DNA of 64,000 nucleotides from Brevibacillus choshinensis (GTDB lineage: Bacteria; Bacillota; Bacilli; Brevibacillales; Brevibacillaceae). The position numbers were made by a program, and so were the translations under genes. Of the stretch, positions 12,773 through 16,292 are shown in pieces. Location: positions 3,137,001 through 3,201,000 of the forward strand of contig NZ_CP069127.1 of the NCBI RefSeq assembly GCF_016811915.1. The letters run 5' to 3'. Numbering within the stretch: the stretch's first letter is position 1; every line of letters begins with the position of its first letter. The notes below the pieces were generated by a model. It ran no database searches and was not told the DNA's origin. It saw only the letters and a list, made by a program, of their open reading frames with translations.

Positions 12773-12957
12773 CTTATGCCCGCTTCGTTATCTTTCTAAA
12801 ACTGCTCACCAGTCCATACCTCGTGGTGCTTCTACCCGGTGCCAAATCGTTTCTTTCTCATACAAGCACGGACACGAACGATTAGGCATAGGCTCATAAT
12901 GGATGATATCCCGCTATTCTCACCTCAGACATTCTTTCTTGGAAAGGAATGGCTTGA

Positions 12958-13791
12958 ATGGTTCACACCATCAATCATAATGGCTTTACGAGTAAAGAAG
13001 CCATTTTACTTGCAGCAATGTGCTATCAGACTTATCCTTTATTTTTTGAGGGAGAGCTGCTTTTGCCAAAAGGGTTTAAGCTTGTATACACGATTCGTGC
13101 TTTTGCGGATGTAGAGAACCCTACAGAACATGTGTATGGCTTTCTTGCAGAGTCAAAGGAACAGATCGTTATTGCATTCAGAGGTTACGCAGCCTATCCG
13201 GCTGATCTTTTAGCTGCCTATGACATTCTGCAAGTACCGTATTCTTTTGTCAGCAGCGGAGGGAAAACCTCCCGTGGCTTTACATGTCTATATCGTTCGA
13301 CCCGGAATGAACTCATAAGGAAAGTGAGCAAGCTGTCGGCAAACAAACATTTGTTTATAACCGGCCACAATTATGGGGGCGCTCTTGCAGTGTTAGCCGC
13401 GTTAGATATCGCGGTAAATACGAAGTTTCATGAACCTTTTGTTTATACCTACGGCAGTCCACGTATCGGAGATCCAGAGTTTTCGCAACGATTCAATCAA
13501 GTGATTAACAATAGTATGCGTATCGTAAACATCCATGACCCCTACCCTACGTTTCCAGATCGAGAATATCCCCCTCCATTTACAGAACAAGGAGTTTTTT
13601 ACCAACATGTGAAAACAAAGGTGCCAATCTCTTTCCAATTGAACAATACGCCTCGCAATGATGCGATTGCCTGTTATTTTAAAGCCCTCAGCCAGCTCGA
13701 TCCTGACTTTACCCATTCGCTGTGCACAGAAAATCCGGGTTTTTGTCCCGATACCACATTCTGTGTACCCTTTCAGGGAGCATGCAGGTAG
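12958..13791 (+). CDS. Class 3 lipase-like protein with lost active site
   Basis: The 277-residue protein is a close tandem paralogue of the next gene and has the class 3 (Rhizomucor-type) lipase fold. The nucleophile elbow reads GHNYGG with Asn138 instead of Ser. The expected catalytic His in the RNHE block of the neighbour reads RNDA (Asp235), and the oxyanion FRGT is FRGY near 75-78. Only the catalytic Asp (D194 in NIHDPYPTFP) remains. By the family mechanism it should not hydrolyse esters. Both copies keep a Cys-patterned tail (FCPDT..CVPF.G.C). The frame is intact with a good ribosome site (AAAGGA), so it is not simply decaying. It has no signal peptide. It may be a partner or regulator of the second lipase, which begins 23 bases after its stop. 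Confidence 0.85.
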   Translation: MVHTINHNGFTSKEAILLAAMCYQTYPLFFEGELLLPKGFKLVYTIRAFADVENPTEHVYGFLAESKEQIVIAFRGYAAYPADLLAAYDILQVPYSFVSSGGKTSRGFTCLYRSTRNELIRKVSKLSANKHLFITGHNYGGALAVLAALDIAVNTKFHEPFVYTYGSPRIGDPEFSQRFNQVINNSMRIVNIHDPYPTFPDREYPPPFTEQGVFYQHVKTKVPISFQLNNTPRNDAIACYFKALSQLDPDFTHSLCTENPGFCPDTTFCVPFQGACR

Positions 13792-13814
13792 CCAATGCGA
13801 AAGGAGCCTCATAG

Positions 13815-14705
13815 ATGGAAGGCACTAAAGTCGATCAGATTTATAACAGCGAAGATGCCATCTTGCTGTCGGCCATGCTCCATCAATCCTATCAGCTTTT
13901 CGAAACAAAGACTCTTATCTTGCCGGTTGGGTTTACTCTTCGATACACCATTCGTGCGTTTGCCGGAGTTGAAGATCCGAAACAGGAAGTATTTGGCTAT
14001 ATTGCAGAATCAAAAGAGGATATTGTTGTTACCTTTCGTGGAACCCGAACTTTTGACGACAATGAGTCGGACCAAGATTTATATCAAGTTCCTTATCCTT
14101 ACGTCAAAAACGCAGGAAAAACACATCGAGGATTTACCTGTATTTATGAATCGACAAGAAACGAATTAATGAGCGTCATGAAAAAGCTGCCCGCATCAAA
14201 AAGATTGCTTGTTGCTGGTCACAGTTTAGGTGGAGGTTTGGCTGTCCTCGCTGCATTGGATATTTCCGTTAACACGAAATTTAAAAAACCTGTCGTGTAT
14301 ACGTATGGCAGCCCGCGCGTTGGAGATCCTTCCTTCGCCACCCGTTTTAACCAGTCGGTAAAGAACAGTATTCGAATCTTCAATGTGCATGATATTATTC
14401 CGACTCTACCAGCTCGGGTATACCCGCCTCCGTTTACGAAGAAAGGGTTGTATTATCAGCATGTAAATAAAAAGTACGCACTTTCATTTCAGCTGAACAG
14501 TTTAGCGATTCGCAATCACGAAATCGTTTGCTACTTTGCCTTTCTAAGTAAGCAGAATCCTCATTTTACTGAGGCGTTACGTACGTCTACCCCTGGCTTT
14601 TGTCCCGATACGGAACTTTGTGTTCCGTTTTTAGGAACTTGCAGCGAGAATGATACGCAAGATTTTCATCGGACGGCTCTGTCCCCAAGGAAACGCAAGA
14701 AGTAG
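13815..14705 (+). CDS. Class 3 lipase family protein
   Basis: The 296-residue protein has an intact class 3 lipase triad: Ser137 in GHSLGG, Asp193 in NVHDIIPTLP, and His235 in IRNHEIVCYF. The oxyanion FRGTRTF is near residue 75. The fold hydrolyses acylglycerols or similar esters. No signal peptide is seen, so it is probably intracellular or leaves by another route. The C-terminal tail has Cys in PGFCPDTELCVPFLGTC and a basic extension absent from the first copy. It starts at ATG, eight bases after AAGGAG, 23 bases downstream of its inactive-looking paralogue, and both are probably one transcript. Confidence 0.92.
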   Translation: MEGTKVDQIYNSEDAILLSAMLHQSYQLFETKTLILPVGFTLRYTIRAFAGVEDPKQEVFGYIAESKEDIVVTFRGTRTFDDNESDQDLYQVPYPYVKNAGKTHRGFTCIYESTRNELMSVMKKLPASKRLLVAGHSLGGGLAVLAALDISVNTKFKKPVVYTYGSPRVGDPSFATRFNQSVKNSIRIFNVHDIIPTLPARVYPPPFTKKGLYYQHVNKKYALSFQLNSLAIRNHEIVCYFAFLSKQNPHFTEALRTSTPGFCPDTELCVPFLGTCSENDTQDFHRTALSPRKRKK

Positions 14706-15316: not shown

Positions 15317-16156
15317 CTAACGAACCCGTTCGTTGCATTCGTTGTCGTTGCCTAAAACTTTCCCCAGAAAGGCAAGCATCGGGATGTTAAATGACTCAGG
15401 CCTCTGCAGCGGTGCGAAATGACTCACACCTTCCAAGGTAACGAATACCGCGTTTGGAATGCTGCGACTTAGATATTCAGCGTGCTCGCGCTTGATGAAT
15501 TCATCATGTTCGCTATGTACAATCTCCACAGGGACGCTGATCTGAGCCAAATCTTGCGCCGAATAATTGGGTTCTGTTTGCATCATGAGATTTACAGCGG
15601 CACAGAAAGCTTCGAATTGGTCAGGCGTGGCCGATAGCTGCGCGTAGTCTATCGCGTGTCGGCGAAAACACCGGCTGATGATCGGGCTCATCTCTGCCAT
15701 TTCCTTTGCACCGCTCGGATCCATGTTGCAGCCAAAATAGAAAACGCCTGCGACTCGTTCGGGTGATTTCATGGCGAGGATCATGGCTACGACAGCGCCG
15801 TCGCTCCAGCCCACCATTCCCGCTTTTTCGAGGTTCAATGAATCCATGACCGCCAAAACATCAGATGCCATCCGTTCATACGTATACGGCCGCTCATCGC
15901 GCGTGCTGCGGCCGTGGCCTCGGCTGTCTATCAAAATCGCGCGATAGCCACTCCTCACCAGCGCTTGAACCTGATAGCCCCAATTGCCACTGTGTCCTAA
16001 ACCACCATGAAGCAAAATCACAACTGGACCAGTTCCGTATGTGGCGTACCAGATTCGAGCACCTTCGTGTTCGACATAACCCTGTTCTTTCGTGTCAGGC
16101 AGCGGCGCTGCGCCGTCCGATTCAAACCTGCATAGCTCATCGTCATAACCTTCCAC
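15317..16156 (-). CDS. Alpha/beta hydrolase
   Basis: The 279-residue protein has HGGLGHSGNW after the first strands, the nucleophile elbow GWSDGA, SEHDEF for the acid, and GVSHFAPLQRP for the catalytic His. This looks like the esterase/lyase branch that includes MhpC-type hydrolases. I chose GTG 16156, with GGAGGGG six bases upstream; ATG 16186 has no ribosome site. The first 30 residues precede the fold and are not conserved in appearance. Substrate is unknown. The gene stands alone. Confidence 0.85.
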   Translation of the reverse strand: MEGYDDELCRFESDGAAPLPDTKEQGYVEHEGARIWYATYGTGPVVILLHGGLGHSGNWGYQVQALVRSGYRAILIDSRGHGRSTRDERPYTYERMASDVLAVMDSLNLEKAGMVGWSDGAVVAMILAMKSPERVAGVFYFGCNMDPSGAKEMAEMSPIISRCFRRHAIDYAQLSATPDQFEAFCAAVNLMMQTEPNYSAQDLAQISVPVEIVHSEHDEFIKREHAEYLSRSIPNAVFVTLEGVSHFAPLQRPESFNIPMLAFLGKVLGNDNECNERVR

Positions 16157-16292
16157 TGCGTTCCCCTCCGTCCCATAGCCTTGCATGATCTATTTCTCAT
16201 TTCTCATTCAAATATCCTGCTCGTTCATACACTCGAATGATTACCTGCAGCCTCGATTTTGTTTGGGCTTCCCATTCGCTGATTTTTCAGTT

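Follow-up and report, generated by a model that had tools for sequence, protein, structure and literature searches.

A 64,000-nucleotide stretch of the genome of Brevibacillus choshinensis, here referred to as the window, encodes two adjacent homologues of class 3 lipases, the first of which (A) has lost most of the active site that is preserved in the second (B). The relationship of both proteins is reflected in their matches to the Pfam profile Lipase_3 (PF01764), which with 88.1 bits for A and 104.8 bits for B are above the gathering cut-off of 22, and in a pairwise sequence identity of 58%. A gap of 23 bp separates the two genes (Table 1). The intact reading frame, ribosome binding site and conserved Cys tail that a first-pass annotation had described for the first copy were all recovered, with the tail found in A and B alike. 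A profile search of the genome gave no match to Lipase_2 (PF01674), and the NCBIfam matches of B were all below the cut-off. Just downstream of B, on the opposite strand, we find an alpha/beta hydrolase (PF00561, 91 bits, 15317-16186) that lies outside the class 3 family.

Table 1. Features of the A-B locus, in coordinates of the window
Feature	Coordinates	Strand	Basis
Putative sigma-K-type promoter: AC (12868-12869), 17 bp, CATAGGCT (12887-12894)	12868..12894	+	Single match in window
Ribosome binding site of A, GGAAAGGA	12941..12948	+	Sequence; kept across Brevibacillus, Metabacillus and Paenibacillus loci
Gene A, class 3 pseudo-lipase, 277 aa, ATG start	12958..13791	+	Lipase_3 match, alignment, model
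A residues 77-88 (YAAYPADLLAAY), rebuilt oxyanion/lid motif	13186..13221	+	Tyr77, Tyr80, Pro81, Leu84 and Tyr88 fixed in A, other residues in B
A Asn138-Tyr139, replacing nucleophile-elbow Ser-Leu	13369..13374	+	37/37 A; Ser-Leu in 38/38 B and 37/37 solo homologues
A Asp194, kept triad Asp	13537..13539	+	Invariant in A, B and solo homologues
A Asp235, replacing catalytic His	13660..13662	+	A: Asp 34, Asn 2, gap 1; B: His 38/38
A Cys-rich tail (C256, C263, C269, C276)	13723..13785	+	Alignment
Ribosome binding site of B, AAAGGAG	13800..13806	+	Sequence
Gene B, class 3 lipase, 296 aa, Ser137/Asp193/His235/oxyanion Thr77 intact	13815..14705	+	Lipase_3 match, alignment, model

The distinct properties of both proteins are most evident at the residues that define catalysis. 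An alignment places Tyr77, Asn138, Asp194 and Asp235 of A opposite Thr77, Ser137, Asp193 and His235 of B, which bears out the numbering of the annotation (Asn138, Asp235 and a Tyr in place of the oxyanion Thr) and illustrates that, of the four key positions, only the Asp of the triad, contained in an HD motif, is retained and the other three have changed. At the level of motifs, GHSLGG has become GHNYGG, RNHEI has become RNDAI and FRGT has become FRGY. These changes are not confined to the window, since Tyr77, Asn138, Tyr139 and Asp194 are invariant in all 37 aligned A proteins, in the same way as Thr77, Ser137, Leu138, Asp193 and His235 are in all 38 B proteins, and they can thus be attributed neither to chance nor to a private mutation. 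In 37 solo homologues, Ser, Asp and His are kept and the oxyanion site is occupied by Ser or Thr. A, which lacks both the Ser of the GxSxG elbow (Asn in 37 of 37) and the catalytic His (replaced by Asp or Asn), is almost certainly not a lipase of the Ser-His type. In contrast, B contains each of the residues expected of an active class 3 lipase (Ser, Asp, His and an oxyanion Thr or Ser), every one of them in 38 of 38 proteins, and by this measure it would be the intact enzyme that the annotation had taken it for. In the B proteins of Clostridia, Negativicutes and Gottfriedia (L074, L077, L082, L085-L088, L097, L098) the elbow reads GYSLG instead of GHSLG, with the Ser kept.

A comparison of conserved positions emphasizes how localized the difference is. 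With a threshold of at least 92% conservation within each group, no more than eight sites of the alignment combine conservation within A and within B with a difference between the two, and all are located either in the oxyanion/lid loop (77, 80, 81, 84, 86, 88) or in the nucleophile elbow (138, 139), whereas residue 235 falls slightly below the threshold owing to two Asn and one gap. The confinement of these sites to loop and elbow indicates that the former active site of A has been remodelled and subsequently held, without drift. Such conservation, as strong as at the equivalent site of B, would not be needed in a pure scaffold and it argues for a neofunctionalized A, whose rebuilt pocket (Tyr77, Asn138-Tyr139, Asp194 and Asp235) would bind a ligand or catalyse another reaction, with the link to B reflecting a common pathway instead of a complex. 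We regard this as rather unlikely, since the pocket is left with no plausible nucleophile or general base, we found no known enzyme of the lipase fold with the same set of residues, and the obligate position of A next to a closely related copy, described below, is better explained by a role as partner.

Despite the altered active site, the predicted fold is preserved. AlphaFold2 models of A and B are confident, with pLDDT values of 93 and 90, respectively. The closest relation of the A model is to feruloyl esterase A (1uza; Z 26.0, 3.0 Å, 221 residues), followed by the Rhizomucor and Thermomyces lipases (Z about 25) and, more distantly, the lipase-like chains of plant EDS1, PAD4 and SAG101 (Z 16-20), which are also reached in a profile search with A. 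The model of B has the same neighbours, feruloyl esterase A (Foldseek E 3e-15 to 1uwc) and fungal lipases. By these matches, A has kept the fold of a lipase. Both proteins thus resemble class 3, or fungal-type, lipases in fold and in their assignment to PF01764, and B also in its GHSLGG elbow, Asp and His, but A differs by the absence of Ser and His and by its oxyanion Tyr, and both have a tail rich in Cys and lack an obvious signal peptide.

The evolutionary history of the pair can be inferred from a tree in which A forms a single clade (support 100/99) and B another (98/90), with the solo homologues that contain full catalytic residues placed outside of both. This topology fits one duplication and a single loss of catalysis in the ancestor of A. 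Both copies have since been equally constrained, as illustrated by median dN/dS values of 0.144 (A) and 0.152 (B), obtained by the Nei-Gojobori method from pairs with dS < 1. The annotation had proposed selection for a non-catalytic role, and this part of its reading has held well: the same substitutions are found in at least about 40 species, the A proteins form one clade, and their dN/dS, indicative of purifying selection, equals that of B. A shared loss in orthologues combined with purifying selection is what characterizes a pseudoenzyme under selection, and we are thus as good as certain that A is maintained for a function. That A might instead be a functionless, decaying duplicate finds its only backing in frameshifted copies of Priestia abyssalis, Bacillus sp. 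AFS088145 and an uncultured Brevibacillus and in a fusion in Bacillus sp. FJAT-25509. In two of the cases with a broken A, B is broken as well, and the gene is intact, with identical substitutions, in at least about 40 species of several classes at a dN/dS of 0.14. Its breadth and its constraint refute decay, which we consider scarcely credible. The two findings that the annotation had set against its own proposal, relatives with a first copy full of stops or an Asn138 private to one genome, thus do not hold as general statements, since broken A genes are few and the Asn is invariant.

Which role A might play is suggested by the distribution of the pair. Relatives with the same substitutions, which the annotation had advised to look for, were found. 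The tandem is present in 13 of 26 genomes of the same genus (12 intact and one frameshifted), with remnants in one more, and in the wider family in one genome of another GTDB genus (G037), with a single catalytic homologue in G033. Strong matches in 398 genomes of Bacilli are patchy, comprising Brevibacillaceae, both genes in three Paenibacillaceae, and one further genome with B only (G187, L142). A broader scan, which included one genome per species and thus provides a lower bound, located the pair in at least about 40 named species of Bacilli, Clostridia and Negativicutes. Among the matches listed, carriers are found in Brevibacillus, Paenibacillus, Metabacillus, Bacillus, Gottfriedia and Priestia within the Bacilli, in Clostridium acidisoli, Candidatus Formimonas, a Eubacterium MAG and a Clostridiales MAG within the Clostridia, and in Sporomusa and Lucifera within the Negativicutes. 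In both clades, Gottfriedia is placed near Clostridia and Negativicutes, a position in the tree that suggests that the pair has moved as a unit. An apparent Gram-negative carrier, a locus labelled Pseudomonas sp. ISL-84 (L072, JAGGRA010000068.1), was rejected, as it clusters with Bacillus sp. NTK034, with full support, among the A as well as the B proteins, and the assembly is probably mislabelled or contaminated.

Wherever the pair occurs among the matches listed, A precedes B, adjacent and on the same strand, and within the same set there is no intact A without B. The reverse is observed in at least two genomes, Priestia abyssalis, where A is frameshifted, and G187, where it is absent. B is thus not strictly dependent on A everywhere, and the asymmetry, with B at times alone and an intact A never so, fits a dependence of A on B. 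The lone B of G187 adjoins ORFs resembling an integrase and a transposase. Thalassobacillus pellis has only a 5'-truncated B with no traceable A, whereas both genes are broken in the uncultured Brevibacillus and in Bacillus sp. AFS088145. In the fused gene of FJAT-25509 (L091:6001-6780), the intervening stretch has apparently been lost, leaving a hybrid with GHNYGG in its front part, NH and the tail of B behind, and a stop in mid-frame. The distance matrices of A and B agree closely, with a Mantel r of 0.87 in 36 genomes compared to a permutation maximum of 0.26, as would also be expected, together with the tandem linkage, from simple co-inheritance. The partnership with the active neighbour that the annotation had envisaged has thus gained indirect support from constant adjacency, order, the lack of an intact A without B among the matches listed and the agreement of both trees; a chaperone or a lipid sensor, which it had named as examples, would be candidate forms of such a partner. 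The function of A probably involves B, and we lean slightly towards a direct complex between the two.

The control of an active enzyme by a catalytically dead paralogue has its best-known examples in eukaryotes. In trypanosomes, the prozymes of AdoMetDC and DHS are dead paralogues that activate the live enzyme by forming a heteromer (PMC5201418, PMC3663545). The A-B pair shares with them a catalytically dead paralogue retained beside a live enzyme but differs in fold, organism and the tandem arrangement of its genes, and an activation of B by A would be hypothetical. A second parallel is provided by the plant heterodimers of EDS1 with PAD4 or SAG101, which also consist of paralogues with a class 3 lipase fold, although the likeness of the presumed A-B complex to them extends only to fold and pairing logic. 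EDS1 and PAD4 retain the SDH triad and interact chiefly via their lipase-like domains (PMC9528080). In A and B, the lipase domain is followed by no more than a short Cys tail, and the lack of a C-terminal EP domain places them outside the EDS1 family. They share 16-20% sequence identity with the plant proteins and are unrelated to them in organism and role. By analogy, the working logic of A-B would be nearest to that of the prozyme systems and the EDS1-PAD4 pairs.

A further pronounced feature concerns the region upstream of A, where we searched for a sigma-K-type pattern (AC, 15-18 bp, CATAnnnT, within 208 bp upstream of A). The motif is found in 22 of 41 loci, three of which are not clean A genes but a solo homologue and broken copies, compared to 18 of 271 other genes of the same loci (Fisher p 2.7e-12; start codons assigned by a simple rule), and in 13 of 22 loci if each clade contributes one hand-chosen representative (p 4e-9). 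Neither the patterns of sigma-E, -G, -F and -A nor a reversed control are enriched upstream of A, and the sequences in this region otherwise diverge widely among Clostridia, Metabacillus, Brevibacillus and Paenibacillus. A sigma-K promoter of C. difficile is reported to contain AC and CATATAAT, elements said to resemble those of B. subtilis (PMC3789822). In the genome at hand, the exact -10 form of the window is not in excess (17 occurrences compared to 41 in the reversed control), with no recognizable spore genes downstream; the site in the window is thus weak by itself and the argument rests on the enrichment across species. SpoIVA was detected in 25 of 26 carriers tested, the exception being a 3.2 Mb metagenome assembly; its presence shows only the capacity of the carriers to form spores, in classes such as Bacilli and Clostridia that are rich in spore formers anyway. 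Judged from these motifs, expression of the pair during sporulation, a link that the annotation had not noticed, appears reasonably likely.

A regulation of B by A outside of spores, for example by blocking B until export or by sensing lipids in vegetative cells, would be in line with the nearly half of the 41 loci without a sigma-K-like match and could invoke the precedent of pseudoenzyme paralogues that control an active copy, such as the AdoMetDC prozyme of trypanosomes (PMC5201418). Since the sigma-K type is the sole enriched pattern among those tested, and since both proteins begin without an obvious signal peptide as judged by eye, we consider such a role quite improbable.

If A and B were produced late in sporulation, their C-termini would offer a clue to their destination. 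Both end in the tail LCxxNPGFCPDTxxCxPFxGxC, with an Arg at the first of the four conserved Cys positions in the B of the window. Such tails would fit disulfide-linked spore layers, and the pair resembles the coat and exosporium proteins of the sigma-K regulon in the type of its promoter motif, its Cys-rich tail and its spore-forming hosts. In the open-access literature, we found no record of the A-B pair, be it among spore proteins or elsewhere, nor of class 3 lipases of spores. A location in such a layer may be considered, if just short of an even chance. Spore coat layers are known for recruiting enzyme folds. Both proteins could thus be mainly structural, cross-linked via their tails, with lipase activity and mutual contact of little relevance, which would agree with the conserved Cys residues, the lack of an obvious signal peptide and the sigma-K-like promoter. 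Yet a structural use alone would not demand that B preserves every one of the four catalytic positions throughout all 38 proteins, and the solo homologues likewise retain Ser, Asp and His, which makes this explanation unlikely.

The reading that we tentatively favour, while hesitating to call it probable as a whole, thus combines a late mother-cell lipase B with an obligate pseudo-lipase partner A, both ending in the spore coat or exosporium. In this scheme, A would have been born by duplication of the catalytic ancestor of B, its active site swapped once (Ser to Asn, His to Asp and Thr to Tyr, together with a new YAxYPxxL motif), and A since kept as the obligate partner of B. The two genes would constitute a unit transcribed in the mother cell late in sporulation from a sigma-K-type promoter. 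B would be an active class 3 lipase or esterase, with which A would pair through the common lipase fold, presumably as a heterodimer, to control how stable B is, where it is placed or how its active site opens. Both proteins, Cys-tailed and with no evident signal peptide, would be built into the coat or exosporium, where B might act on lipids or esters as the spore matures or germinates. In a more specific version, which we regard as unlikely, the rebuilt and strictly conserved pocket of A would bind a small ligand, such as a fatty acid or a germination cue, to switch a lipase at the spore surface on or off via the heterodimer, and the pair would then be a bacterial counterpart, in its logic, to the plant EDS1-PAD4 pairs.

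Irrespective of these details, A and B illustrate a widespread bacterial case of a very simple layout, with two adjacent genes, one fold and one swapped active site, that is testable in genetically tractable Bacilli. If the link to spores is correct, it would add an unrecognized lipase system to late sporulation. The pair also holds a warning for annotation, since A, for which the mechanism of a lipase is impossible, will likely be given the name of one. Finally, we found no neighbour of the pair that is conserved across genera, with one exception: some loci contain, upstream, a gene resembling an arylsulfotransferase (PF14269, 177-183 bits) or what is left of it. About 44 bp separate the end of this gene from A in Paenibacillus arenilitoris and Gottfriedia (L073:4629-5942, L087:4415-5941), and apparently decayed pieces precede A in several other genera (L079, L077, L088 and others), a hint of an older cluster of three genes.
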